A DNA stretch of 23,004 nucleotides from Funneliformis mosseae (lineage: Eukaryota > Glomeromycota > Glomeromycetes > Glomerales > Glomeraceae): NCBI GenBank assembly GCA_910592005.1, contig CAJVPP010001082.1:1-23004 (forward strand). Direction: 5' to 3'. The notes under the pieces were generated by a model. It made no database searches. It saw only the letters and a list, made by a program, of their open reading frames with translations, and was not told the origin of the DNA. Positions within the stretch are counted from its first letter, which is position 1; each line of letters begins with the position of its first letter. This document shows positions 4,640-23,004 of the stretch, piece by piece. A program made the position numbers and the translations under genes.

Positions 4640-5901
4640 ATTTAAGACATATATACACTCTAATTATTTCTGCTGATAAATTACATCTTTTTTGTGTAAT
4701 TAAATCAGTTTTTTAAAAAATGCTCTTTCTATCGAAATACTAATAACTTAAAAATAAATATAAATTAGATTGATTAAAAATTAAAATTATAAAAATTTCA
4801 TAAAATTTTAAATTTATTTACCTAGAATAGCTAAAAAATCTCTTGCTATTTTTGCTAAATAAAAATATAATGATTCATTTAACTAAAAAAAATAAATTAA
4901 TAAGCTTAAAAATAATATGAAATTATTAATAAAATATATTACTTACTTTTCACCATTATAATAAATTAGTTTTTAAAGATGCAAGTGAAGCATTAAGATA
5001 ATACTCTATTTCATTAATATTTTCTACACATTATCTTTTATATATATGATTTAATAAATCATCATCTTCTTCAAAACTTTCATTTGGATTTTCTAAATCT
5101 ATTATCAATGATGTATAATACATATTGAAATAAGAAGTAAAATTTTATGTAATTTCTCAATAAAATTTACTTTCCAATGATTATCAATATAATATGATAA
5201 TTTTAATTATAGATCAAATACTATAAATTAATAATAATAAATTAATAATCTATAAATTAATATTAATAAATAAAATAAATAAAACTTACTAGTAATAATA
5301 GGATAAACATTAGAATTTGCATGATAATAATATTTTTTTAATTTTTCTAATGCTACTGTAGTAGCAGTATTTATTTCTATTATTAAAGTTTTTATTTAAA
5401 AATATTCAGTCATATTCATTAACTAATTATAAGTTAGTATTGTAATTGTTAAAGTTAGAAAACTTTTATGTGAAACATATTTTATTGCTTATGCAAAATA
5501 CTATAAATAAATTAATTAAATTAATTAAAAAAATATATTATAATACAATTAATTATATTATTTCTTACCTTTAATAAATTTTCTATTTCTTTTAATAAAT
5601 TCCATTCACAATCATTTAAAACATATAATTTTAATTCTCATTCAGATATTTCTGTATTATCTAAAACCTTTAATAATTATAATAATTATTAATAAATTTT
5701 ATAAATTTAGTTATAATAATAAATTTTTAATACTAATCTCATGTAATTTAAAATTATGTTTAATCATATCATAAGTAGAATTTCATCTTATTTTTACATC
5801 TAATATAAGTTTTTTAACAGGAAGAGAAGCTGCATTATATTGATGTAAAAATTTTCACAATGTTGAGATGAAGCTCTAATTTTAACAATAAGCTTACAAA
5901 G
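4640..5901 (-). pseudogene. hAT-family transposase, downstream exons (decayed)
   Basis: Minus-strand exons read in order along the C-terminal half of a hAT (Ac-like) transposase. KIRASSQHCENF (near 5870) is followed by LILDVKIRWNSTYD (about 5797-5763), the conserved RWNSTYDM-type block. Next come DCEWNLLKEIENLLK (near 5600-5560), VALEKLKKYYYHAN (near 5340), an acidic stretch, and NEIEYYLNASLASLKTNLLQWWK (written from 5030 to 4950). AKIARDFLAIL (near 4850) and DLITQKRCNLSAEIIR (near 4700) finish it, matching the hAT dimerisation region and its C-terminal end. Introns with GTAAG donors and TAG acceptors separate them. Stops occur at Gln and Trp positions (RWNST and the second W of QWW are TGA), and at least one frameshift is needed. 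The upstream part of the same gene is at 22809-23004, across the inserted element. Confidence 0.85.
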
Positions 5902-6150
5902 CTATATGAGACATATTGCAATAAAACTAGACAAAGTAAATATTTTATTATGTAATATGAATGAGAGGCTGATTGTAATATGATTGTAAAATTGATCAGT
6001 ATGACTGATGACATTTTGAAAAGTAATAATAGTGCTTGTTTATAACTTATAGACTTGTTAATTTTAATGCTCACTTTATCATACTAGAATGTGATGAATA
6101 TAAACCATAACATGATTAATATAGAATTACCTCTATATATAAAAATATTA

Positions 6151-6158
6151 ATATGAAT
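6151..6158 (+). repeat. 8-bp target-site duplication, left copy
   Basis: ATATGAAT, repeated exactly at 7006-7013. It fits the hAT preference nTnnnnAn (T at position 2, A at position 7). Confidence 0.85.
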
Positions 6159-7005
6159 TAGAGAAGTGATCTGCAGATAATAATCATGTAAATATCTGGA
6201 TAATGTAAATATTTAGATTATATTTAAGTACTATGAATTTGTGAAATTTATCTGCAGATTATCCGTAAAATTAATGGATATTTGCAAATTAATACCAATC
6301 TATAATTCAAATCTGCAGATATTCATAATAATTTATTACAATTTGTATTTGAACTTTAATATTCAATAAAGCATAATACAAATAATTACAATAATTTAAA
6401 TGATTATATAAAGATTTAAAGGTTTATTATAAAGAAAATTGTGATTGAATATTAAAAAAGGCTTTAAAAAATTTATTTGTAATTGACTAAAACACTGTAT
6501 ATAATATAATTTTTTAAAAATTTCATCATAAATAGCCTAATTCTTATATAGCTATATACAATAAATTCAAAATATTATAATAACTTTTCAGATCGTAATG
6601 TATTCTAATCCATTTCAGAAATACTTTACTAAAAAAAAGTGCAATAATTGTTAAAAATATTCATTTCCGCCAAAAAATTCTAATATGTAAATTTGGTTAT
6701 AATAAATAATAATGTTGTAACGAAATTATAATAAATAAATAATAATGAAAAATAGATTTAAAATAAATTAATAAATATAAAATGTGCGTATAATTAGACT
6801 GGATAATATTAAGTCTAATCACAAATATTCAGATATTTGCAGATTTACTGTTATCTATACGATCTATTGATCATTTGTAGATATTTAGCTCATAATTCAC
6901 AAATTATTTATTTGGTTTTCAGTAGATGTATAATTATTATCTAGATCATTTTTTTAACTGACGGACGAATAATTTTATCCACAGATAATTCAGATCATTT
7001 TACTA
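6159..7005. mobile_element. Non-autonomous hAT-like element (MITE-like, 847 bp)
   Basis: Termini are TAGAGAAGTGATCTG and, reverse-complemented at the right end, TAGTAAAATGATCTG, matching at 12 of 15 positions. TAGAG fits the canonical hAT end YARNG. It is flanked by the exact 8-bp duplication ATATGAAT. The subterminal 150 bp at both ends are packed with ATCTGCAGAT/ATATCTG-type short repeats in both orientations, the layout of hAT transposase-binding sites. There is no coding frame, so mobility must have been supplied in trans. The homologous right TIR (around 22470-22490) lacks the insertion and shows the pre-insertion sequence, which confirms the boundaries. Confidence 0.9.
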
Positions 7006-7013
7006 ATATGAAT
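7006..7013 (+). repeat. 8-bp target-site duplication, right copy
   Basis: Exact copy of 6151-6158 (ATATGAAT), immediately right of the hAT-like element. The left-TIR sequence resumes here. Confidence 0.85.
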
Positions 7014-7033
7014 CTAATTTACATCAGATTTAC

Positions 7034-7332
7034 TATGAAACCCAAGAATTACAACACTATTAAAAGCATTCTAAAAAAGCTCAAGGTAAAAAAATTGCTT
7101 CTTACATTTTCAAAATAAATGATACTTAAATACTAGAAGCTTATCTAAAAAAAGAAAAAATTACTTATGAAATTTACTATAAAGAAAGAAAAATTATAAA
7201 TGTTAAAAAAAGAAAATAAAATGAAAGTATGCAAAAAGTAGAAACCCTTAGAAGGAAAATAATTTTATTATACCAATATTGATTTATTTTTTTTTACACA
7301 AAAAAAATTCTTCTTTATGCAAAATATAATTA
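7034..7332 (+). pseudogene. Small basic ORF beginning in left TIR (frameshifted)
   Basis: The ATG at 7034 opens a frame starting MKPKNYNTIKSILKK. After a one-base loss in an A run (near 7075-7080) it continues as IASYIFKINDT..ILEAYLKKEKITYEIYYKERKII. The same protein is read from the right TIR at 22454-22221. Past the TIR the frame continues with Lys/Arg-rich sequence to about 7332. No known domain is recognised. The start is supported because ATG is conserved in both TIR copies. Facing inward from both ends, it may be an element-encoded DNA-binding or regulatory protein; that is inference only. It could also be the first exon of the gene at 7682-8176. Confidence 0.5.
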
Positions 7333-7681
7333 ACGATCATCATATTACATTACTTATCAATAAAAAAATGTTGTTAAAATTTTTGAACAAAAAATTTTAT
7401 ATATTCAAAGATATGTTTTATGAGTCTTTATTTTTCTCTTATGAATATTAAAATAAGGTAAATAATCTCACTTTGTATTGGAACATTATAAAAACATTAC
7501 CAATTCACTTAATTTTCAAGTAAAAAAAAATTCAAATAACAAATCCTTCTAATAATCATCATTAAACAATTTTATTTTTTGGTTTTAAAAAAAAAAAATA
7601 ATCAATAAATATTTACACAATTTTTATTCATAATAATATTTTAAAAAAATGCTTATTTTCAATAGTAAACTTTTTTATAGA
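7333..7681. other. AT-rich gap or possible intron
   Basis: No coding frame seen. It ends in TTTTTTATAG at 7671-7680, a plausible splice acceptor for the frame that opens at 7682, so the gap could be an intron joining the TIR ORF to the next coding block. Not demonstrable from sequence alone. Confidence 0.35.
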
Positions 7682-8176
7682 TTGTTAATTGAACTCCTTC
7701 TTGGTTTCTTGATTCACTATAAAACCTACCAAAATCAACTCCATACTATAAATCAAAAAATTGATCAAATAATCAACAAAATAGAACCAAGAAAGAAACA
7801 ATTTAAAAATAAAACAAATTAACTTACTAGTAATAAACAATATTTATAAGAAATAGAAAATCAATAGAAGGATTTCAAACAATTATTTGATAAAAATATT
7901 AGGTTAAATCCCAATTTTTCATTTAATGACATGGTTATTAAAATTCACTAATTACTAGGAGATGGAAAAGAAGTTACTGCTTTCACAATAAAAAACTTCT
8001 ATCAACAAAAATCTAATCCTAGAAGTAAAACAATAGAAGTAATTCAGAAATGGGTCAACAAAGAAAAGAAGAAAGAGGTGGAGAGTGAAGATTACAAAGA
8101 AGATAATAAAAATAATGAAGATACAAATAATAATAATATTATTATTAATAATAGCAGTAATAATAATAAAAGTTGA
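7682..8176 (+). pseudogene. Lys/Asn-rich protein with helix-turn-helix-like core
   Basis: One frame of about 165 codons runs from just after a splice-acceptor-like TATAG to TGA at 8174. It is interrupted only by four TAA/TAG codons, all where Gln fits (for example in KIH*LLGDGKE). The order is: an N-terminal helical segment rich in Gln, Asn and Lys, possibly coiled coil (about residues 1-75); a compact core LLGDGKEVTAFTIKNFYQQ followed by SNPRSKTIEVIQKWVNKEKK (about residues 95-140); and an acidic Asn-rich low-complexity tail. The core looks like a small DNA-binding helix bundle in which a TIKNFYQQKSNPR-type turn precedes a recognition-like helix, but I cannot name a family. No indel is needed. 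If TGA at 8174 were read as Trp the frame would run on to about 8255. Confidence 0.55.
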
Positions 8177-8819
8177 ATTTTTGTCAGTGTCCAAAGAATA
8201 GGTAATACTTACAGTGGTTTTAGATCTGAGTATTTTTCTTTCATGCAAGTGCTCTAACAATTCTTTAACTTATATTTTTATAAATTATTTATGTATTTTT
8301 CTATTATTAGTTGAATTAAAATAAAAATAATTTTCTTTTGTCATTTATTGGTTACTGGACATATCTTTTGATTTGCAAATAAATAATATAAAAATATTGA
8401 TCACATTATTATCATGTCACAATGATTGAATTTATTTTACTTTCTAACTAAAAAAAAATAACTTTTAAAGTCAAATATTTACTTACCAAGTGTCAATTAT
8501 TACTATTTCAAAAAATTTATATTTCTTTGAACTATATTTTACTTTTATAAGATAATTTTTAATAGGCAACAAAAATAAGCAGTTTATGCAAGATCCTTTT
8601 TATATAACCAATTTTTATTATTACAAATGTTTTCAAAATATATAAATATGAAAAAGAAATTATATTTAGCATTAATATTCACATTAATATTAGCATTAAT
8701 ATAAAAATGGTAATGATAAGTATTTATTTATTTATGCATTTTATTTTTGTCTTTTAACCTGTCTTCTGTATCTTAACCAAATTTCTCAAATTCTTTTTAT
8801 ATTCCAATCTTCAGGTTTG
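8177..8819 (-). other. AT-rich interval with one possible exon
   Basis: On the minus strand 8262-8207 reads LKELLEHLHERKILRSKTT and then GTAAGTATT, an excellent 5' splice site, so it may be an isolated exon of a minus-strand gene, perhaps the 3' part of the gene at 8820-11630. I cannot place the exons around it. The rest (8265-8819) is AT-rich with short direct repeats of CATTAATATTAG near 8670-8700 and no gene I can support. Confidence 0.3.
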
Positions 8820-11629
8820 CTATTTGGTAAAGAACAGATTTCAATAAATATTTCCTTTGTTTTTTTCTATCGATAATTCAGATGTTTGTTGTAATCTTAA
8901 AAAGATATTTTATTCTGAATTAGTTAAAGATCTATATCGTCATTTAGGAATTAGAACTTTAACATTAATGTTATAAGGTTGTAATGGTAAATAATATTTT
9001 ATTATTATCGTTATCGTTATTATTTAATATAAAAAAATTTATTTTAAACATTATCTATACTTACCATTATTATTATCGTTGTTATTTATTTTATCATGTA
9101 TAATTTGAGTTTGCCTTTCTGTATTAAGCATAATACTTTGCTGTGTTATTTTATTATTTTTTTTAATTGTTTTTTCTAATTCTTTACAATTTTTTTTTAT
9201 CTTTTTTTGTTGTTCAATTATAATTGTCTTTATATTTTTTACATGTTATCCTTTTGTGTTATAAGATATACTTTTTTAATTTCTTGAGCATGAATATTGT
9301 TAAGTCATTCAACTTCAATTTTATAGCAAGTAAATAGATTGTTAAATCTATCTTTATTATTTTCAATTGTTTCTTTAAATATTTTATGAGTAGATAGATC
9401 CGTAAGATTAAAAGCATTAGTAAGTTGATTAATCAAATTCCAAAGAGCTTCTTTACAAGACTTTATAGCATGATTATTTTGAATTAAAATATCTTCTTCA
9501 ATATATTCATTTAAAAGTACATTTAATTTTTCTCGTTCTGATTATACAGAACTTATTCGTTATTTCAAATCTTCTCCATTATCAGGATTTTTCCAATATT
9601 TTATTTTATATACTTTACGTCAAATCTTCATCAAAAGCAAAAAAATAACCTGGACTAGTAAGATTGATAGAACATGCATGATGAAGTAATAATTGTAAAG
9701 ATGGGTTTTCAAAAATGATATATAAAAAATAAGTAACTGATCTTGCATAGTTACTTTTTTCCATTACAGGAAAAAGTGAGGTAAATGCAATCAAATTTTC
9801 AAATTGCATATCATAATAATCATATTGAATTTCTATTTTATATCCTATCTAATACCCACACTAACAAAAATATAAATACCCATACTTTCATTATATAGTT
9901 ATTATCACTTTGAATAATGTCATTAAAGGTTTGATTTTTGTGTTTCAAAATTTGATTCAAAGAAATTCTAACTGCTACCTATATTAATTCTAAGACATAG
10001 TATATCACTTAATAATCTACTACCTTCTCTAATTTGTCTAAATAGTGATCACTAATACAAGCCATTAAATTAAAAATTTCATATCCTGAAAAAATAGTGA
10101 TCAAAGTGATACACATTTTTTTAATTGTATGTCATGCACCAAGTAAAAGTCTCAATTCAAATTTTTATTCTTGATAAGAAATTAATTGACGAAAGATCAC
10201 TTCATCATAAGCTACATTAATATTTTTATAATTACCATTTTTTGGAAAAAAATCTTTAAAATACATCAAGTTAAAAATCCCTTAGTTAATAAAACGTTAA
10301 AAATTTTGATTAGTCAAGCTTTTAGTAGTTGTATATTTATTTCAGATACGATTTTAAAAGAAAAAGCTATTTTTTTTTGCTTGTGTTTTAATTATTCCAT
10401 TAGCTCTGCTCCAAGAATATTTCTCAATGCATAAAGAGGTGGATGATTAATCTGTAAGATATTATGTAGTTATTTAGTATCACACAAGGTTTTATTAGCA
10501 TGATAGCCACACTAAGATGATAATTTTACATATGTACATATTACAAGCATTGTGTACAGCCTCATTATTACATGGATTTTCACTGGGTTCTAAAATAATT
10601 ACATTAAGTGATAATAATTTACATTCTAATTCAACATATTTAACTAATTCCTGATAAACTGTATTTATATCAAAGTCTATTTCATCATCCTAATAATTTA
10701 AGAGCATCAATAGTATTATGATTATATTCTTTTTGACAGGAAAAAACCTTTGTGCCACTTTCTTTATGCTTAAAAAAATGACTACCTTCTGTTTGAAAAC
10801 ATACTAATTTGTATTATCATTATTTTTTTAGAAATTCTATTTTTATCATTAAAAGCTGAACACACTTGGAGTCCTACGTAAGGTATTTGTATATTTTAGT
10901 TTATAATATTCATAAAATGCTTTATACAACTCTCATCATAACTAAAAAAATATTTATCTTTGTGACAAAAGAGACATTGACGTTAATAAATATAACTTTT
11001 TTTTACTGATCGTATTTGTTTTGATTTTTTTTATGTAATTGATTTTGATTAAATGTAAAATGTGACATACAAATACCTAAAGTGTGTAATATAGTTTCAG
11101 GATTAGTTTGACTAATAACAGTTCTATCAACTTCCTACGTTTCTATTAATTATCAAAAAGAACGAAGAATATGTCTTAGCTTTATATAATTTGGATAACG
11201 TTTTATTTGTCTATTGAAAATATCTATCAATACACATAGAACAAGATTTTTACACTCAATATCACTTATTAAATAGTTTTCATCAGAACTAATTGTTGAA
11301 TTTTTTTCAATAGAATCTTTTCAATCGAATCTATGTCCTTCTATATTATATCGATATTAACTTCATTACATTCATCTAAATTAGCTTTTTCTTTAGCATT
11401 TTGAAATGCTTATAATTGAACAAAAATTCATGAATATCTTCACTATTGCTATCATTTGTAGTAGGTGTTGTCAGAATTTCACAAGTATTATCAGTTGTAA
11501 TATTATAATTATTATTCTTAAGTAAGATGTTATCCTTATCAGGATCATTATATTCAAATTTGCAACTATTTATATAGTCTGCAAGAGTTCTCATTTCCCC
11601 AAAACAGATATTTTCATTTTTAAAAGACA

Positions 11630-11630
<1 letters not shown>
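8820..11630 (-). pseudogene. Large multi-exon protein of unknown function (decayed)
   Basis: A chain of minus-strand coding blocks. It starts MSFKNENICFGEMRTLADYI (ATG at 11630). The next block (about 11340-10830) holds GHRFDW, KLRHILRSFW and a Cys/His cluster CLFCHKDKYFFSYDESCIKHF (reported in pieces: C-x2-C, then C-x3-H). Then come HKESGTKVFSCQKEYNHN (near 10750), NHPPLYALRNILGAE (near 10450) and DEVIFRQLISYQE...FELRLLLGAWHT (near 10180-10120). NLIAFTSLFPVMEKSNYARS (near 9790-9730) and CSINLTSPGYFFAFDE follow. The last parts are an EALWNLINQLTNAFNL block (near 9440), a basic Gln-rich segment ending in a GTAAGT donor (near 9063), and LPLQPYNINVKVLIP (near 8965). I associate these phrases, from memory, with an uncharacterised multicopy Glomeromycotina family. 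Stops sit at Gln and Trp positions (GAWHT has TGA), and frameshifts are present. It might be the element's replication or mobility protein, but no catalytic motif is recognised. Confidence 0.6.

Positions 11631-11657
<27 letters not shown>
11631..11657. repeat. T27 run (A27 before the minus-strand ATG)
   Basis: Twenty-seven T residues on the plus strand, followed by nine A. On the minus strand this places an uninterrupted A run directly against the ATG at 11630, so any transcript would have an oligo(A) leader. Confidence 0.8.
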
Positions 11658-11664
<7 letters not shown>

Positions 11665-13141
11665 AACTTTTGATGAAGATTATTTAAGGATTACAACTAC
11701 TATAAACTTTTTGTAAAGAAACTACTTATAAGTATAAAAAAATTAAAAAAAAAAGTTGCATATTATTTGTATATTATGCTGATTATGTCATATTTTAGAG
11801 GTACAAATCTTTATCACAAGCTATTGCTATATATAGATCGATAAATTCTATATAAAAATAATTATCATACTAATATTGATATTCTAATATCTGCTTAAGA
11901 AGTGTGCCATTTATAATTTTATGACCTGATGCATTCATTTATCGATGACGCTTATCTGTTTCAAATAAGCACGTTTATATTCTTCTGATTTTCCTATATA
12001 ATAATAAATATAAATTGAAAAGAATAACGATAATGAAAATAAAATAATACAATAAATATATTGAATATAAGTAAAATAAATACCTTTGCATGTTATTCCT
12101 TATTTGTATCAATTATCGTAATAAATATCGATATCATGTCTGTCTTTGTTCTTAGCATTCATTTTCATATTTATCTGATTAAATCAATGGTATGAGTTCT
12201 AGGATTGCTCTCAATGGTTAATAATATCAGTTGTGATGATGATTGTTTAAGGAAGAAAAAAGAATTGCCATTCCTGTCATGTAAAAAGTAAATTAATATA
12301 TATAGAAATAAATTGATGTCTGTTTCTCTAAATGATACTCACAGGATATTCTCGCATATAATGCATCTAATTACAAATTGAAATAATAATCATAAAACAT
12401 TCTTTCAGATATAATGATCAAAGAGCAATAAATGAAATTTAAATTCTAATACTAATATACATGTCTGATAAATACTAAGTTTGATAATGCTTTTTCCATA
12501 TAATTCTTCAATAATACAGGCTCTGCCTCTTTTGAATTCTCTCAAGAAGTTTCGCTAATATTCTCTTTGAATATGAATAATAATCTAGATGCGTACATAT
12601 CTTAGAAAATTTACTCTATGCTAAAAATTTACATACCAATTTCTTTAAAGAACCATAAAAAGTTAGAACTTTGATGCTATTACAGCACAATACTGCTCGA
12701 CAACAGCATTGATCACATTTTTGACTATAATAAAAGTATCTTCAGCAAAATATAAAGATTTTTAGCTTAATTAATAGAGCAACATCTAGAATCACTTTGA
12801 TGAATTATTTGCTTCAGAAAATTCATTTACTAGCTATTCCAGTTGCTGGAATTATCTAAAAACCTGTAATTAACCAATGAAATTGAAAAAATATACTATC
12901 AATTAGTTGATACGATTGGTTTTAAATCTATTCTTCTTATTTAAATTCCTATTTTTTGAGTTAATAACGATAATCATACAATATCAAATCTAAATATTTT
13001 ATAATTATAAAGTTAGCTTAACAATAAAAAATATATAAACATTCTGATTAAATATTTTAAATAAGATTAATTATCTTACCATTATCTTTTATCTATAGTA
13101 ATGTATACTTTAACACTTGTATATAAATGCTTTTTAAATAA

Positions 13142-13739
13142 TGTAACAGGATTGGATTGATAAACATAACGCAGAATATTGCAGATCTAAATGTCAGACA
13201 TATCAGACATATTTGATATATTTGATATACTGAACATATTTGATATAATTGATATCTTGGACATATCGGACATATGAGATATATTTGATTTATTTGTTAT
13301 ATCCATCTATGTATTAATTTAATATAAATAGAGAGTAATAGAATCATGTAAACAGTAGTTCGCTTTTAGCTCACTTTTAGTTTTCCTTTAGTTTGCTTTT
13401 AGATACGCATTTAGTAGCTCTTGTAGAAGTGCTTGGCCTAATATCTCACTTAGTACTCTAACTCCTTCGACTTCTTTTCGTATTCTTTCTTACTTTCTTA
13501 TATTCTTATTTTCTTATTTTATTATTATCTCTTATCTTTATTTTTATTATTATCAATAAACATATTATTATACCTCTGAATTAATCGAGCTGTCTTGCTT
13601 CTAGTTTTATTGTGAATACACTATTGTGTAGATTATAAATCCTGAGATAAATTAAATTGAGTTGCTACGTAAACTTAGAAGAATCACCACTTGAACACCC
13701 CATCTAACAGTCGCAATTCGCAAGGATTGCACATTAACA
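13142..13739 (+). mobile_element. Solo LTR of a retrotransposon
   Basis: The 598-bp segment starts TGTAACAGG and ends CATTAACA (TG...CA ends), flanked by ATAA on both sides (13138-13141 and 13740-13743), a possible 4-bp target duplication. Inside are a TATA box TATAAATAGAG (13323-13333) and a downstream AATAAA polyadenylation signal (13555-13560), in promoter-then-terminator order as in an LTR. Base composition is less AT-rich than the surroundings. No internal retrotransposon genes lie on either side, so it is a solo LTR. The 4-bp duplication is AT-only and could arise by chance, so exact ends are provisional. Confidence 0.6.
13190..13300 (+). repeat. 9-bp GATATATTT-type tandem repeat
   Basis: Degenerate tandem copies of GACATATCA/GATATATTT with period 9, about twelve units, in the U3 part of the solo LTR upstream of its TATA box. 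Period 9 gives an open (x-D-I)n frame, but nothing else suggests translation; enhancer-like U3 repeats are more plausible. Confidence 0.65.
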
Positions 13740-14575
13740 ATAATGCTATCTAACTAACATAAAATTCCATTTGGTTTACACTATATATTTTAAACAGAAA
13801 ATCTTATTTTTACTGGAATTTGCTTTACTCTCACCTTCTCATCAGTAAAGCAAATTAACTTCATTAATAAAATAATATTAGGCTTAATCTCATAATAATA
13901 AATAATTAATGAAAGGTTTTTAACTTTTCTTGACAGAATATTTTTTCAATTATTACTAATGCTACATTGTTATTACTAAACTATCACTTGTAGTAAATTG
14001 AATAATAGTATTTTTAATATATTGTCTTATCATTATCGAAACTCTTAAATTCAATTTACTATAATGTATATTGATATAATCTGCAAAGTGTTTCTACTTT
14101 TCAGTAACAGATATATTTCATTCTCGCCATAAAAATAATAATGATAAATTTTGAACTTTTTGAAGAAAGATCATTTTAAGGTTTTGACTGCTACAAAATT
14201 TATTATACTATTTATTTTAAAAAATAACTTAAAGGTATATTTTTTCTTAATAGTATAGGCATGGTTAATTTATTACATTTTTGTAAAAAATGAAACAAAG
14301 TTACACTTTTTTTGCTTTTTTACATTTTTTTATATAAAAAAAATAAATCTCGATTTTTTGGAATAAATTTTACTTTCATGAAATTCATATTGATAGTTGA
14401 TCATATTGATCTCTTAACAATGATCAATCAAAATTAATTAAAATAATAATACAATTGATATCATGATAATTGCAACCATAAATTTTATTTTTATCAAATA
14501 ATGAATAATTGATTAATGACAAAAAAAAATTTTTTTTAAAAAAATTAATTTTAAATCTTTTAGTTTTTTAAAAAA

Positions 14576-17500
14576 TGATAATAAAAGAAGAAATTAAACA
14601 AGAATTAATAAAAGCAGATGTGAGATTAGACAAAATATCAAAGAATTTGAAGAAATTTGAAGAAGGAGAAAATGATAGAAAGTGGTTGAACAAGTGAGGA
14701 AAAAGGTGAAAAGTAAAAAACTTAGTGAAGAGAAAAAGAAGGAGAAGGAAAGATGGAAGGAGAAAAAGGGGTCATTGGAAGCAGAGAAGAAGAGGTGGGG
14801 AGATCAGGTGAAGTACTTATAAAAAAAACTAGTTGAATTTAAAGAAAGGAAAAGTAATGAATAAATTGCGTAAAAATATAAATATTTTTCATTCATTCTA
14901 TTTCGTTTATTTATTTATTTATTAATAAAACATTTGATATATTGTTTACAATATTGGCTAATCTATGCTTTTTTTTATCAACCTGCATCATTTTTTGTAA
15001 TTATAGTTGATGATCTAAATGAAGAGAAACCTAGGAATAAAGAGTTATATAAGAATTCAATTTATCTTCAATGATATTTTGTTTCTTTAACCCTGCTCAA
15101 TTGTTAATATTAATTGATATTTTATATAGATCTGAATTGTGCTTTCCAAATTGATTTCAAGGACCATGTCAATTATATATCATTTTTAAAGAATCAATTA
15201 AGCAAAGTTTCCAAATCTCCTAAAAATTACTACAATTACTTACCTGTTGTTCAATCATCAAGATATGTCTATATATGAGCTTGTAAAATCACATCCTTTA
15301 ATATATATATGTTTTCATAATAAAGGCTTAACTGAATACCCCTTAGCAATACCAAAGAGTGATATTATGCTAAAAGAAATTAAAGAAGCAACAAATATAG
15401 CAATTGCAAAAGAAATGGCAAAGATATAGCTTAAATTAATGATATTTGTGTTTTATGAGATGAAATTGAAGTCTTCAAAATTATTGACAAATACTGTAAG
15501 ATAATATATTTTTCTCTGCTAATGTTATAATATGTGATTAACATATTATTATTTAATTTTTTTTTAAAAATAGGAATTGGAAAACATTTCTGAACGAAGG
15601 TTCATTCAACAAAAAAGATCTTAAAATCAAATTGGAATACTCAAAAAATTGATAATAAAATTACAAAATAAATAGCCATTTTTTTTGATGAATCTTCTGC
15701 CTTCTTGGTATGATTTTATTTATATTTTAAAATAGGTTGAGATTTATTCTTAGATTAAGATTTATTTTTTTAATAGATATTAAAATAAACCAAGCTTATA
15801 AAGATAATTAAGATAATGATAATAAACCTTTTTAAGCAATTCATCAAGTTTTATATTTCTTTTTAGAATATGCTTATGGTATTCTTACTGATACAAATTT
15901 TTCTATTGCTAACCTTACACCATTAAAAAATAAAGACAGTTCTGTAAATGTACACAAAATAATATTTCTATGACAAAATGGCAGACTTTACAAATTATTA
16001 AAGTTTTTTAATTTTGGTTTTATAGGTAAGGGAATATGATCATAATATTCATAAACCATTTATTTATATAGTAATACAGGATTGCTTAAGGTATTATATC
16101 TCATCATTTTTATTGAAATGTTTATATACATTATTATTTACTTTTGATAACTTTTTTTTACAACTTAATTTTATATAGTGACATAGATCAGATTCCACAT
16201 GATAAAGATATCTCAACATATGATATTATTCAGTTTGATAGACCTTTTTGGGTATCTAATTGGATAGCTAGCAAACACTTAGATAATCAATTTAAATTTC
16301 GTGATGTAATAAATCTTGCAAAAGCTAAACTTCTTGGAAGTACCTCTAGTTGGAATATAGGTAAATCTAATAGTCAATGAAAGAGGACTGTTACTCTTGC
16401 ATTAATTGCATACATTGTTATTTTATATGTCTTCCTAGCATTAAGCATTGCACTAGAACTTGTTAGGGCACACATGGTTACTCTGATTACAATTGATAAA
16501 AATTATGAAAATTATATTATCACATACCCTTTTGAACCTATACTTTCAGAGGCTTCATTAGAACTAATGTCAGAGAGAAATATTTAAAAAGAAGTTCTTT
16601 AAGAATTAGATTACACTTTTCAATCAGGTAGTATTCTTAATACTAGCACTCAAGGTGAGCTTGCTGTAAGGTTATTATTATTGAATGCCTGACATCATCT
16701 GATCCTTTCACAAAAGTCAATTAACTCTAAAGTATTTATAAACTAGCATTTTTTAATTATCACTTTTTTGTGTTCTCATCCTCACTATTATATGTATAGG
16801 TGACATTTTCTTCTTGATTTTCAGTTATTAATTTCCTTCAAGAACTTCTTGGTTATGCATTTCTAAAAGAAAAATTTTTCCACTTCAATAATTTTATGTT
16901 AGGATTTACACATTTCATTCTAGTCACATATGTATCAGTTAAAGAAGATCTTATTTTAATCTATAAATAATGTAGTATTGTGTTATGTAAAAGAAATCAA
17001 AAAGACATAGATTTAATTATTCCAATTATGTATAATAAAAATATAAAAATAGAAATAATATTAATTCAGGTATAATTCTAAATATTATTCTTAATATTCA
17101 TTCTATTTTATATAATTAACATAACAATATTATTCATAGATTAAGAATCATGTATACAGAGACAGTAAAATAAAATATGAACTTGAATCTTCACTTTCAC
17201 CAAATATTATATTTGAAAATAGTTATCCAATGAGTTAAAAGATAACAATTTAGATATATTACTACATGTTGATAAGAATATCTTTCCTCTTATTTAATGT
17301 CTATTTTATATTATATTGATATCCAAATTACTTTGACAAACTATCTTCATTCTTCTTGTAGATTTGACATATATTAATAAATTTTCATTAGAAATATATT
17401 GTTATAATAAAGAATATAAACAATTTAATAATACTTCATTATATGACCTTCATAATAAATCTAATTCTATATATGACTTATCCAAACATAATCAACTTGT

Positions 17501-17660
17501 TGCTTGTAGCTTAGACTCTTTCAATATCACTACAGAATATAAAATAATCTTTCAAAGTCTTTTACATTCATGGACTGACCAAATCTGATTGGCTAAAGAG
17601 AAATATAATGTTGAATAATTTTTACATTAAATGATGCCTTGTATATATTCCAGAAAAAGG
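14576..17660 (+). pseudogene. Crinkler-like P-loop NTPase with nuclease-like C-terminus
   Basis: The ATG at 14576 opens a charged coiled-coil segment (KEEIKQELIKADVRLDKISK, then after a frameshift KKEKERWKEKKGSLEAEKKR). The NTPase part starts near 15130 (LNCAFQIDFKDHV). At 15247-15285 the frame reads VVQSS-RY and then SIYELVKSHPLIYICF, where a Walker A (GxGKS) would be expected before YELVKS; that loop appears deleted. Walker B is intact as IAIFFDESSAFL (15672-15707) before a GTATGA donor. A long block with STYDIIQFDRPFWVSNWIAS follows (16196-16740). The C-terminus has KDIDLIIPIMY and, across an intron (17070-17139), ILIQ-IKNHVYRDSKI, resembling the D...QxK core of PD-(D/E)XK nucleases. This order matches Crinkler-RHS-type NTPase-nuclease effectors. 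Several stops (SQW, NAW as TGA) and frameshifts show it is dead. Confidence 0.6.
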
Positions 17661-18204
17661 TAATGTTATTTTTATTATTTTTAGTTTTTATTCTCTAGTT
17701 ACTAATATTTATTTATATTGTATACAACGCAGATTTTATGATGATGATAAGAAAGAAAATTACAAGAAAAGTAAACAAAAATGATAAGATAAAAGACATT
17801 TTAAATGATTCTAATTTTACAATACTAGAAATATTGAGTTTTTACAAACTAATAGTTCCTTTTTACTGATTAATTTTTAATAACAAAATTTAAAATTATT
17901 CTTGCTTAATGAATATTTGTTTATTGTAAAAACATAAATGAATTTAACTTTTACAATCTTATAATATAGTATATTTATAACTCAAAGAAATTTACCCTTT
18001 ATAATAATAAGTTTAAATAAGAAATTTGGTTTTTATATTAAAAAAACATATTGATAACAATTATTTATCAAAAAGCATTTAATAATATTGAATTTTTCTA
18101 TTTTGAAATACTAATATTAGTTCAAAAAATTGGTGATTGCTTTTTTAGTGTGCCTGCATTAAAATAATACAAAGTAAACAAAAATTATAAAATTATATAT
18201 ATAG
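17661..18204 (+). other. AT-rich interval, possible 5' exon of the next gene
   Basis: 17730-17880 contains a short frame (KITRKVNKNDKIKDILN, then TILEILSFYKLIVPF) that could be an N-terminal exon of the transposase-like gene, because 18203-18204 is a good TATATAG acceptor. No other feature is visible in the rest. Confidence 0.3.
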
Positions 18205-19965
18205 GAATAAATGTATATGAAAAATATTAACAAGGTAATAAATATAATAGTTCTAATGAATATCAAAAAGCAATTAATTTTTTAGAAAAAGGTTGTAAAT
18301 GTAATTGTTCTTTAAAAATTTCTAAGGAAGAATTTGCAGAATTAAGAAAATCTTTTCAAGTACTTTTTAAGTTTGAACAAGATATATTTTTAATGGCTCA
18401 ACTTAAAGTAATGAATGATAGATCAATAAGCATTAGTAGACGTCTTAAAAAGAAAACCAGATCTAATAAAAGAACTTTCTACTATTAGGATCACAATATA
18501 TTCCTTTATCAAGAAACTTATCTCAATATGCTAAGAATTGATAGAACTTATTTTAAAAATATTAGAAATCACCTAATAAGTAATAGTCTTTTACCAAGAA
18601 TTTATGGTAATATTAAAAGAATGCCTTAATGGAAAACTAAGATGATAATTGATAAAAATGAGCTGAAATAGTAAAAAACTTTCTTGAAAATTATGTAGAA
18701 GTTCATAGATTACCAAGTCCAAGAAAAAGTATCAATAGAATAACTCAATTAATTATATTTTTACTAGCTAAAATGAGTTATAAATCTGTATATAGAGATT
18801 TTCTGATTGGTTTAGAAGAAGATAGCAAATTGAAATTCTTAAAATATGATGTCTTCAGAAAATTATGACATCAATTGACATCAGAAATTCAAATTATGAG
18901 TCTCAGAATTGATCTGTATGATACTTATCAACATTTTAGAAATGGTTTATATTATAATACTTGCTAAGAGAAAGAAGCTAAAGAATTACTCAAAAGATTT
19001 AAAGAATATCTATCTAAGGCAAAATTAGAAAGAAATTATTATAATAAAAATACCAAAATTAGCATAAAAACAAAGAAAATTAGTAAATTAACATTATTCA
19101 AAGGGTAAAATACAGTATTGTAGTATTGATGTCACTACTCATTATAGTTATAATTGAGCTCAAAATATTCATGTGTTACATTCAGATCAATAAGTAAATA
19201 AAATCTATTATCTTAGTCTATATAAAATTCATTTATTTAGTATTCAAGATGAAGCAGTAAAGGAACAAATCAATTATATTCTTAATAAAGATGAAATTAT
19301 AGAAAAAGGATCTAATGACACACTTAGCATAATTTTTAATGGAATTAATAAATTAAATAAAAGTGAAAAGCATTTAAAGATTACTTGTGATAATGCAGGT
19401 GATCAAAATAAAAATAATGTAATAATTTGGTTTTATTTATATTTGGTAATTTGTGAATATTATGAAAAATATTAAATTGAATTTCATGATTATTGGGCAT
19501 ATCAAATTCAAATGTGATGGTAGTTTTGGAATGATTAAAAATTTTATAGAAAAATAAGTATAGATTATGTAAACCATGTTGTAAAAGTTATAAAAAAATC
19601 AAGTCTAGCAGGATTGAATAAAGCTCAATGTTATGAAGATAGAAAAGGTTTTTAATACTTAAATATCAAATCTATTTTAGGAATTTATTTTAAGAAATTA
19701 TCAAGTATTCAGAAATATCAACATTTTCTTTTTAAAGTAACTAATCTTAGTACAGTAAATATTCAAGAAGTTGCTAATAAACCTTTTCTGAATTCAGTTT
19801 ATTAAAACTATGAAAGCAGATATTTTTGAAGAAATTAGAACTTTATCTATTTTAGTATTAACACCATCTTTTTTGGATTACAAAAGACAAGAATATCTTT
19901 ACCAGAATATTCGTTTATTTATTAGAGATAAATTCAAAGATATTACTTATCCAAGACCAAGATGA
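18205..19965 (+). pseudogene. DDE-type transposase-derived gene (DUF7869-like), decayed
   Basis: Starts after a TATATAG acceptor. In order: AINFLEKGCKCNCSLKISKE (Cys cluster), MAQLKVMNDRS, LKKKTRSNKRTFYY, then QETYLNMLRIDRTYFKNIRN. The middle has KNFLENYVEVHRLPSPRKS, KMSYKSVYRDF and SLRIDLYDTYQHFRNG, where related proteins have a C-x2-C pair that is Tyr-x2-Tyr here. THYSYNWAQNIHV follows, then LKITCDNAGDQNKNN (about 19376-19420), the Asp-x-x-x-x-Gln-Asn-Lys-Asn signature of this RNase H-like family. The end has GHIKFKCDGSFGMIK, SSLAGLNKAQCYED and LDYKRQEYLYQNIR. The expected fold carries out DDE cut-and-paste chemistry. Stops at Gln/Trp codons and at least three frameshifts (near 18662, 19480 and 19545) inactivate it. 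It is the best candidate transposase of the 16.8-kb element, though it could be a separate insertion. The family name is from memory. Confidence 0.7.
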
Positions 19966-20031
19966 ATACATTAAATTATATTTATATATGTAATTAATTA
20001 TTAATAAATGTATAACTATTAACTATTTCTC

Positions 20032-22198
20032 ATGACAAACCAAGAATATGAAAATTAAGTTTGATTAACAAATTGATTAAGGCTGAAAGCAAAATAAGAA
20101 AAAAAGGATTTTAACAATTTAGCCAGTGTTAAAAAAAAATTAGAACTCTTTGTTTTATTCAATAAGACTATACTGGTAAAGTAATAATAGAGAACTTCCC
20201 TAATTTAACTCAATTGAATTTAGATAATAATGAATTATTAGAAGAGATTATTATTTGCAATTATCCTGATTTAAAATTAGTATAGATAGCCCATAATAAA
20301 TTTATTAAGTTAAAGATAGAGAACTGTTCTTCTGTTAAAGAAATTTATATTCATAATAATCAATTAATTAAATGAGACTTTCCAGTTGAAAAATTAAAGA
20401 GTAAAAACTTAAGAACTATCTTTTATAGTGATAATCCTTTAACTACTAATGAAAAAAAGAGGTTAGATAATTTGGGATTAGAAGATATCATAAAAAGAAG
20501 TAGGGTAGATGGTTATGCTCAAACTTGGTTAGATGTTAAGTATCCTCTTGACAAAAGAAATGAAGTGAAAAAACTAGATCTTAGCAGTTTAGGATTATAA
20601 GGAGAATTAAACTTAAAAGGATTTACTAATTTAAAAAGTTTAGATTGTAGTAATAATGAACTAATTGATTTAGATTTATATAAAGTATAAGAAATTGAAA
20701 TATTAGGATTATTCAAATAATCAATTATGAAAGTTAAATGTTAATAGCAATAAAGAATTGTAAAAAGTGCATGCTAATCATAATGAAATATGAAAAACAG
20801 ATTTCACTGGTTTAAGTAATTTACATACTTTAATGATAACATTTAATGAACTAGAAGAAGTTGATTTAAGTGACTTAACTAGTTTAAAAAGTTTAAATTG
20901 TAATTTAAATAATTTAGATGCTTTAGATTTAAATAATAACTTAGAAATAGAAAGTGTATATTTTTATTGTAATGATATTGAAAAGTTAGAAATTAAAGAG
21001 TTAAAAAATTTAAAGTATTTATATTATTATAAAAATAGGTTAGAAGAATTAGACTGTCACAACTCAAAAAGTTTGAAAGAATTGTTTATTTGTCATCAAT
21101 AAGAAATATCACTTTGTAACCTAAATGTCAAGGATTGTGAAAATTTGATAATACTAGATTGTGCTGAGAACAGTTTAAAAGAATTAGATATTAACACTTA
21201 AAAAACTTAGAGTTTGTCTTATAAAGAAAATTTAATTAATAAAATTAATGCTAGTAATTCAAAAAAATTTAGAATTTCTTGATTTTTTTAATCATCATTA
21301 CTTATTTTATTCCTCCTCTGATAGACAAATCTTAAAACTTGAAAAGTAGATAAATTAAAAAAACTATTTTTATGTTGAGCATGTTCTGATTGACAATCAC
21401 TGAAAAATCTTTAAGTGTTGGAAATAGATAAAAAAGAAGTTCTAGAGTTTAAACAATTCTTATAAGAAAAAAGAGATAAACCAATAAAAGAAATCTTGGC
21501 TAATTCCAATAATTACTCTCTTGAAGATATTCTCAAATTAGATAAGAAAAAATTAAAAGAAGTATCTAAAGAGTTAAAGAATAAGTTAACTGAACTAGCA
21601 AAACAAAAACATAAAGAAATAAAAAAACAAAAAGAAAAGGAGTTTGTGGATGAAATAAGAAAGAGGTTTAATATAGATGAGGAAGAAATCTAATCAAAAA
21701 AAAGAGAAAAAAGAAGTTCCTCCCTTAGAAAAAGATAGTGATTCTCCAAGTGAAGAAGAAACTCCTCTTCTTACTTCTCAAGAATCATCAACACCAAAGG
21801 ATAATAATAAAGATAAAAACGTTTATGAGTTTAATGAAGAGCAAAAAGCCTTTTCTCTTTTTGATTTAGAATAACTAGAATAGTTTTTTATTCAACATGA
21901 TATAAAAAATGTTACTCTTGATAATAATAATAAATTAGTAGTTGAATATCATAATATTAATAATAATAATAATAAAGCTGAATTACAATAAATATTTAAT
22001 TATTTAAAAAGCAATAATAAAATCTCTTTATCCTATTCTGAACTTAAACAAATAATTGCTGAGAAAAGGTAAGAATAATTATTATCAACCAATCCAATTA
22101 ATTACTTACCTTACATTTTGAGAGGAACAATAATATTATTGATAATAGAAGTTTTTGTCTATCTGTTAGGAAAAAAGAAAAAAAAATCAAGGAATTAA
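20032..22198 (+). pseudogene. Leucine-rich-repeat protein with C-terminal membrane segment
   Basis: The ATG at 20032 (MTNQEYEN) precedes about 720 codons of one reading broken by stops and about five frameshifts. Repeats of the type NLTQLNLDNNELLEEIIICN and NLKSLDCSNNELIDLDL run from about 20190 to 21240, with RVDGYAQTWLDVKYPLDKRNE separating two LRR groups (20505-20570). Then come a Lys/Glu-rich helical coil (21496-21690), an acidic Pro/Ser stretch (PPLEKDSDSPSEEETPLLT), an Asn-rich linker, and a hydrophobic segment ILRGTIILLIIEVFVYLL (about 22115-22168) followed by KKKKKSRN and TAA. The topology suggests a tail-anchored protein displaying LRRs on one side of a membrane. By hand count about 18 Gln positions are TAA/TAG and 17 CAA; of eight Trp, seven are TGA and one TGG. 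Frameshifts lie mainly in A runs (20131-20139, 20715-20717, 21261-21267, 21696-21703). Cys/Asn-type LRRs of this style occur in AMF and in their Mollicutes-related endobacteria (from memory). Confidence 0.7.
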
Positions 22199-22220
22199 TT
22201 AATCTAAATTAGATAATAAA

Positions 22221-22454
22221 TTATTTTTTTTCTAATTTTCTTTTCTTTCTAGATTCATCATGATTTTGTGTTAATATTCTTTTATTAGTTATAATTTTTC
22301 TTTCTTCATGGTAAATTTCATAGGTAATCCTTTTTTTTCTTAGATAAGTTTTCAGTGTTTGAGTATCATTTATTTTGAAAATATAAGGAGCAATTTTTTC
22401 ATCTTAAGCTTTTTTTAGAATGCTTCTAATAATGCTGTAATTCTTTGGTTCCAT
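22221..22454 (-). pseudogene. Small basic ORF beginning in right TIR
   Basis: The ATG at 22454 opens MEPKNYSIIRSILKKA, one TAA at a probable Gln, then KIAPYIFKINDTQTLKTYLR and ITYEIYHEERKII. It ends in a basic tail (ESRKKRKLEKK) at TAA 22221-22223, about 77 residues. It is the inverted counterpart of the ORF at 7034. Between copies changes are mostly conservative (EPK/KPK, TYLRKKR/AYLKKEK). The basic end could be a nuclear localisation signal. No family recognised. It faces inward and converges on the LRR gene, whose stop lies 22 bases away. Confidence 0.55.
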
Positions 22455-22729
22455 AGTAGATCTAATGTAAATTAATTTCATATTAATATTTTTATATATA
22501 AAGATAATCTTATATTAATCATGTTATGGTTTATATTCATCACATTCTGGTATAATAAAGTGAGCATTAAAATTAACAAGTCCATAAGTTATAAATAAGT
22601 ACCATTATTACTTTCAAAATGTCATCAGTCATACTGATCAATTTTACAACCACATCACAATTAGCTTCTCATTTATGTCATATAATAAAATGTTCACTTT
22701 GTCTGATTTTATTGCAGTATGCTTTATAT
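22310..22729 (-). repeat. Right terminal inverted repeat
   Basis: The reverse complement matches 5904-6158 and 7014-7205 in order. It is uninterrupted where the left TIR holds the 847-bp hAT-like insertion (TATTAATATGAAATTAATTT here). The outer end is near 22729, next to AT-rich simple sequence (22730-22808) that leads to the hAT exon. Confidence 0.85.
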
Positions 22730-22808
22730 TATAAATAAATATAATATATATTATATTATAAATTAATTTTAAAAATTTAAAAAATTTAAAAAATATATAT
22801 ATTATTAT

Positions 22809-23004
22809 CTTTAAAACTATGCTACTTGTTGCTTTATTATGAAGTGTTTTAATTTCACTTTCTAAACAATTAGCTTTTAAAGAAATAAGTGCACTTTGTA
22901 CAAATAAATTTATAATATGTGCAAAATATCAAATATGATTATTTTTTTTAGTAAAATTAATATTTTGTAATTGACATTCTTTTTCAAGTTCTTCTATCAT
23001 AGTA
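22809..23004 (-). pseudogene. hAT-family transposase, upstream exon (partial, decayed)
   Basis: Minus-strand frame entering from the window edge: IEELEKECQLQNINFTKKN, then HI-W(TGA)-YFAHIINLFVQSALISLK, the conserved C/YFAHIINLxVQ block of hAT transposases. It ends SEIKTLHNKATSSIVLK at 22809. The next base run (ATAATAAT) could be a GT donor mutated to AT. The protein continues in frame in LCKLIVKIRASS at 5901, on the far side of the 16.8-kb element. The N-terminal part, with any BED zinc finger, lies outside the window. Confidence 0.8.

Follow-up and report, generated by a model that had tools for sequence, protein, structure and literature searches.

The stretch of DNA analyzed here, 23,004 nucleotides of the mycorrhizal fungus Funneliformis mosseae (contig CAJVPP010001082.1, positions 1 to 23,004; hereafter the window), contains what is, with a probability of roughly 0.8, a dead gene-carrying DNA transposon, which was inserted in another repeat with duplication of the target ATAT and was likely moved in a cut-and-paste manner by the predicted DUF7869 transposase of its family. 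An earlier note, made from the sequence alone, had described one dead DNA transposon with long terminal inverted repeats (TIRs). We found that this overall reading stands with respect to the ends, the insertion into a repeat, the duplication and the existence of partner copies, whereas the size given is not the element's own, and the label hAT for the interrupted gene and the label NTPase-nuclease for one of the interior genes lack profile support. In our view the ends of the family are more interesting than its middle.

The element spans window positions 5908-22725 and is flanked directly by ATAT at each exact end (Table 1). The left arm consists of two parts (5908-6157 and 7001-7288), which are 90% and 80% identical to the right arm, and the pairing of the arms comprises ungapped blocks of 143, 139, 118 and 78 bp with a complementarity of 85-92%. 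The next longest inverted repeat within the AT-rich window measures 53 bp. The arms, the exact ends and the ATAT pair confirm that the two inverted copies are the long ends of one element, as the earlier note had it. An alignment of 26 tips with their flanks showed that the tip reads GGGGCA (with A for G in places), followed by about CTGCAACAAAACCAGACAAAGTGAACATT.

Including the window, 12 two-ended copies were collected, on contigs C3964, C21, C310, C591, C2139, C439, C18, C3750, C469, C225, C127 and C1082 (the window; contigs are denoted by C and a number throughout). They range in length from 3.5 to 16.8 kb, and the aligned part of the arms measures about 300-530 bp in most of them; the right tip of C225 has a small deletion and its end was placed accordingly. 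The earlier note had named a target duplication of constant length as a check, and it was indeed recovered: the 4 bases outside both tips are identical in 11 of the 12 copies, compared to a chance agreement of 1.0% for random 4-mers. The identical duplications comprise seven times ATAT and once each ACAT, TAAT, AAGT and ATTT, and the single exception is C2139 (ATGT vs ATAT). Considering that the four sequences found once are non-palindromic, the match is no artefact of the self-complementarity of ATAT. When lengths from 2 to 10 bp were tried on the 12 copies, duplications of 3 and 5 bp, and likewise those of 8, 9 and 10 bp, were identical in none, a duplication of 6 bp in one, and one of 2 bp in seven, as ATAT implies. 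Shifting the boundaries by up to 3 bases reduced the 4-bp agreement to at most four copies.

The genome that was searched comprises 82 Mb on 4154 contigs. Searched singly, the two flanks of the element gave 27 and 50 matches, and to recover empty sites ten loci on eight contigs were compared to both flanks joined through one ATAT. On five of these contigs the junction runs through uninterrupted with a single ATAT, with zero extra bases in C1737 and C4070 and with 2 extra bases beside it in C594, C3555 and C442. Of the remaining three, C1027 shows a deletion that spans the site, C3749 carries around 0.6 kb extra, and for C299 the alignment was essentially limited to one side. The uninterrupted repeats with one ATAT thus demonstrate the insertion into another repeat that had been proposed. 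The claim that the split gene is a hAT transposase lacks profile support, as four short pieces gave no Pfam match. Moreover, C1082 was not among the 150 scored places of 357 candidates for the hAT dimerization domain (PF05699), and two related copies of the host repeat contain no open reading frame (ORF) of 80 amino acids or more, except for one of 86. What we take to be hAT-like motifs in the host repeat are visible by eye only and were not confirmed by the profiles.

Table 1. Features of the element and its surroundings (window positions; bp, base pairs)
Feature	Position	Strand	Remarks
Left half of interrupted host repeat	5200..5903	-	
Target site duplication, left copy	5904..5907		ATAT
Left TIR, outer part	5908..6158	+	element positions 5-250 pair with right arm at 89.8%
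Nested 845-bp insertion in left TIR	6159..7003		10-bp duplication TAATATGAAT at 6149-6158 and 7004-7013
Left TIR, inner part	7004..7288	+	with broken left TIR ORF (frame from 7008)
Subterminal block	7404..8349	+	common to C2139 and C3750 (84% DNA identity over 7001-8349)
Nested insertion, ~6.1 kb	8350..14510		absent at that point from C2139, C3750 and C18; ends approximate
Block shared with C2139 (75%) and C18 (69%)	14514..14923	+	small ORF common to C2139, coiled-coil-looking by eye
Cargo gene remnant	16117..16584	+	same family as C2139 cargo, 31% over 112 amino acids
Predicted DUF7869 transposase gene remnant	18252..19959	+	13 in-frame stops in four matching stretches
Leucine-rich-repeat gene remnant	20600..21099	+	PF12799
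Right TIR, ~529 bp	22197..22725	-	
TIR ORF, right copy	22221..22481	-	87 codons including stop; in-frame stop at codon 26
Target site duplication, right copy	22726..22729		ATAT
Right half of interrupted host repeat	22730..23004	-	

Across the genome the TIR gave at least 40 matches, and 70 of the 4154 contigs carry a tip. With 3 mismatches allowed, 82 tips were obtained; 20 of them face each other as inward pairs, on 10 contigs and at distances of 3.5-15.6 kb, so that partner copies of similar structure exist, as the earlier note had expected. The other 62 tips have no partner at this threshold. This is in part what the note had named as speaking against its own proposal, namely a TIR found mostly in single, partnerless copies. 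Pairing is lowered by short contigs and diverged tips: C3964 was missed entirely, and C225 and C1082 contributed one tip each despite having two ends. Every contig with both tip orientations has an inward pair; on C18 a third tip lies another 33 kb away, and the two tips of C1832 point the same way. An inward tip was found within 13.5 kb of 29 of the 38 transposase places. Among the relatives that carry a name in the protein database are Diversispora, Ambispora, Geosiphon, Gigaspora and Rhizophagus.

The gene that connects the copies encodes a DUF7869 protein and was found, in broken form, in 11 of the 12 two-ended copies. The protein family yielded 867 database matches, and the domain was present in all 45 proteins tested. 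The predicted fold matches those of DDE integrases and transposases, and three aspartates are invariant (D311/D390/D432). In addition, 11 of the 45 members show a weak match to an ISAzo13-type DDE domain (best E 0.004). A search by sequence against solved structures gave nine matches with an E of 0.58 or worse; no Sola structure was among the matches in the PDB lists, which excludes nothing. We therefore predict that DUF7869 is a DDD transposase with an RNase H fold, in line with the DDE-type gene that the earlier note had placed in the interior on the basis of its letters and that now has profile, predicted fold and aspartates behind it. The features associated with cut-and-paste transposition by a DDE enzyme thus come together in this family: TIRs with a constant duplication, an empty site, and a predicted RNase H fold with three acidic residues. 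A diverged DUF7869 gene that is nearly open, with 375 and 163 amino acids around one stop, was observed on C1742 (12300-16300), a contig on which the genome-wide tip search found no TIR tip. Seven candidate pairs of short TIRs around this gene were rejected as none was convincing and most were A/T runs; three shuffles gave 1, 0 and 0 pairs.

Each arm contains, inward from around base 245, an ORF of about 88 codons that reads inward. For the inner half, the diversity at the three codon positions over 35 arms was 0.208, 0.163 and 0.359, compared to 0.213, 0.229 and 0.229 for the outer half, and the third-position excess was reached by none of 20000 shuffles, although the arms are mutually related and the rows not independent. 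A separate count on 27 pieces gave 0.173, 0.122 and 0.325. The inner halves of the TIRs are protein-coding. Searched against the protein database, one copy of the TIR ORF gave 638 matches among 646 candidates, in a search that accepts only 0.55-1.75 times the query length and to which much longer fusions are invisible. Pfam gave nothing over cut-off. The fold predicted for the TIR-ORF protein P0196 (pLDDT 75.1) follows the order beta-alpha-beta-beta-alpha-beta, which would be ferredoxin-like, and ends in a poorly predicted basic tail; the best matches in a structure search with this model included Cas2 and VapD, none of them significant. The product is, in our reading, a small nuclear protein encoded by the element. 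In the window the left copy of the ORF is split by the 845-bp nested insertion and the right copy has a stop at codon 26; the window copy is dead, as the earlier note had it. Neither for DUF7869 nor for coding TIRs of this kind was a paper found in the open literature (subscription papers were outside the scope); the phrase matches for the latter concerned plant TIR-domain proteins and myxoma virus.

Outside the TIRs and the transposase the copies differ in content, as judged from a comparison of ORFs of at least 40 amino acids, although a cluster of ORFs in the subterminal block is common to five of the 12. Pfam scans were made of chosen cargo pieces. Over cut-off these yielded a kinase in C591, two domains in C439 (AAA-ATPase-like and treble-clef finger) and the leucine-rich repeat in the window (28.2 bits vs a cut-off of 27). 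Kinase-like pieces stayed below cut-off in C310 and C3750, as did DUF6826 in C3257, a copy for which one end was recovered. The other chosen pieces had no Pfam match over cut-off, and Rfam gave nothing at the gathering threshold. Of the interior genes listed in the earlier note, the leucine-rich-repeat part of the putative LRR-membrane protein is thereby substantiated, whereas the NTPase-nuclease lacks profile support, two pieces having no Pfam match. Leucine-rich-repeat and coiled-coil-looking remnants extend over window positions 20376-21871. The position of the cargo is not uniform either: the ATPase-like gene of C439 opposes the transposase and the leucine-rich-repeat gene of the window lies on the other side of the transposase.

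Two cargo families recur. The family common to C2139 and the window gave 12 matches on 11 contigs; six of these contigs carry a TIR tip, and on all six the match lies inward of it. Without the two source contigs, four of nine matching contigs carry a TIR (hypergeometric 8.7e-6, with contigs weighted equally regardless of their length). In some relatives of this gene the frame stays open over a much greater length than in the remnant of the window. The second family is shared by C310 and C3750 and is located directly ahead of the transposase. Its kinase-type piece in C310 gave 24 matches on 17 contigs, and on four of these (C2279, C170, C1307 and C625) a Crinkler (CRN) header (PF20147) is present upstream, on the same strand and within 4 kb, which resembles the organization of Crinkler effectors. 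In contrast to these, none of the 78 header matches shares a contig with a known TIR pair, and the only one on a TIR contig (C1530) is at the outer side of the tip. The kinase-type domain known from effector genes thus rides in these elements without the Crinkler header, and the idea that the header is the cargo's first exon was rejected. A coiled-coil header common to the cargo genes was likewise rejected, as a search recovered a single weak match besides the query. In Rhizophagus irregularis, genes with Crinkler domains are reported among the high-copy genes (PMC8647823).

With respect to mechanism, we infer that the DUF7869 protein would recognize and bind the TIR tips, and would cut and join with a 4-bp stagger. 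The product of the TIR ORF may be a small protein, ferredoxin-like and with a basic tail, which would act on the element within the nucleus and assist or regulate there; as there are two copies per element, either end would keep one. The stretch between TIR and transposase could act as a slot for host or effector-type genes, which would travel along with the element. The window copy would have received two nested insertions after its own insertion and would have decayed subsequently. A broader view, which we put forward only tentatively, is that of a transposon lineage of mycorrhizal fungi whose TIRs are genes for a small ferredoxin-like nuclear protein needed for transposition or its control, with a DUF7869 DDD transposase and an interchangeable effector slot by which Crinkler-type domains would be shuffled in and out of the host repertoire. 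The proposed assignments would connect DUF7869, a domain of unknown function, to transposition. They also offer a case of TIRs under protein-coding constraint, whereas the common view of TIRs is that of binding sites and promoters. Finally, they tie transposon cargo to a Crinkler-effector domain in the same genome, which makes the spread and recombination of effectors directly testable.

The family could represent a known superfamily, Sola2 or another Sola group, with unusually long TIRs, and we consider the chance of this only slightly less than even. In slime moulds, Sola2 elements are reported (PMC3627910) to have AT-rich 4-bp duplications of the form AWWT (ATAT, AAAT, ATTT), TIRs of 12-21 bp and varied passenger genes, there Fanzor; Sola-2 families have also been reported in R. 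irregularis (PMC11075540). The AT-rich 4-bp duplication, the encoded transposase and the variable passengers beside a constant transposase part are alike, and eight of the 11 duplications fit AWWT (seven ATAT and one ATTT), whereas ACAT, TAAT and AAGT do not. In a comparison by description, the short TIRs there contrast with the protein-coding TIRs found here, of about 300-530 bp in most copies, the passengers differ from Fanzor, and Pfam gives DUF7869 with the weak ISAzo13-type match mentioned above. Mutator, Polinton and Ginger fit worse than Sola2. Target duplications are 8-11 bp in Mutator-like elements and 6 bp in Polintons, compared to 4 bp here, and Ginger elements have a Gypsy-type integrase core with the rve profile. 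The 45 DUF7869 members matched 16 Pfam families at E 0.1, and these include neither the Mutator transposase profile nor rve, although the DUF7869 fold is integrase-like. A Polinton-like self-synthesising or virus-derived element, alike in its length and long TIRs, is very improbable given the duplication length, the fact that the gene common to the copies is DUF7869, and a viral structure library that gave no match at E 0.001 or better. Mutator-like elements do have long TIRs around varied sequence (PMC3310237). ToxhAT, a DNA transposon of 14 kb in wheat pathogens, is similar in length and carries an effector gene, but it is named as of the hAT type and known for one cargo (PMC12506042), whereas here many copies hold different cargo.

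The role of the ends and of the middle can each be read differently. The TIR ORF might be the first exon of a cargo or transposase gene that is spliced from either end, in which case promoter, start codon and a shared N-terminal domain would all come from the TIRs. It does read inward from both ends, ahead of other genes, and the database match P0312 runs into a coiled coil that by eye resembles ORFs near one TIR of C225 and C591. However, 94 of the 120 matches listed are 77-90 amino acids long, 44 of them exactly 88, and 85 of the 120 end in GK or EK, which makes this explanation unlikely, even though many of the listed lengths may derive from ORF calls that ignore introns and would miss fusions. 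It is similarly doubtful that no cargo is carried and that the interior genes were either nested at a later time or, as neighbours, caught between TIRs by chance. The 6.1-kb block of the window is nested indeed, and the leucine-rich-repeat piece (20794-21099) has itself as sole match in the genome; the cargo family of C2139 and the window, which lies inward of a TIR tip on six of its 11 contigs, and the second family just ahead of the transposase in C310 and C3750 argue against it. We retain the gene-carrying, probably cut-and-paste transposon as the best explanation.

The size of 16.8 kb that had been assigned to the element is not its own, as it is inflated by two nested insertions and around 6 kb of the interior is nested repeat. 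The 845-bp insertion is presumably Mutator-like, judged by its duplication length; its left part also matches C656, C1038, C307, C911 and C527, and the insertion thus belongs to a separate small repeat family. The larger insertion follows from colinearity: the window copy runs parallel to C2139, C3750 and C18 up to around 8349 and again from around 14514, which implies that around 6.1 kb was inserted between these points. A minus-strand ORF in this block (9618-9848) has 51 matches in the genome including itself, the best other being C2542 (80%), and the block is thus a separate repeat. None of five pieces tried matched Pfam and a search for TIRs of the block gave none that was convincing. Minus both insertions the element measures around 9.8 kb, within the size range of the other copies. 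An array of 9-bp units is located at 13188-13301, within the larger insertion. At the far left of the window, positions 1-1000 have a GC content of 0.35, compared to 0.17-0.27 in the remaining window, and contain an ORF of 102 amino acids at 588-893.

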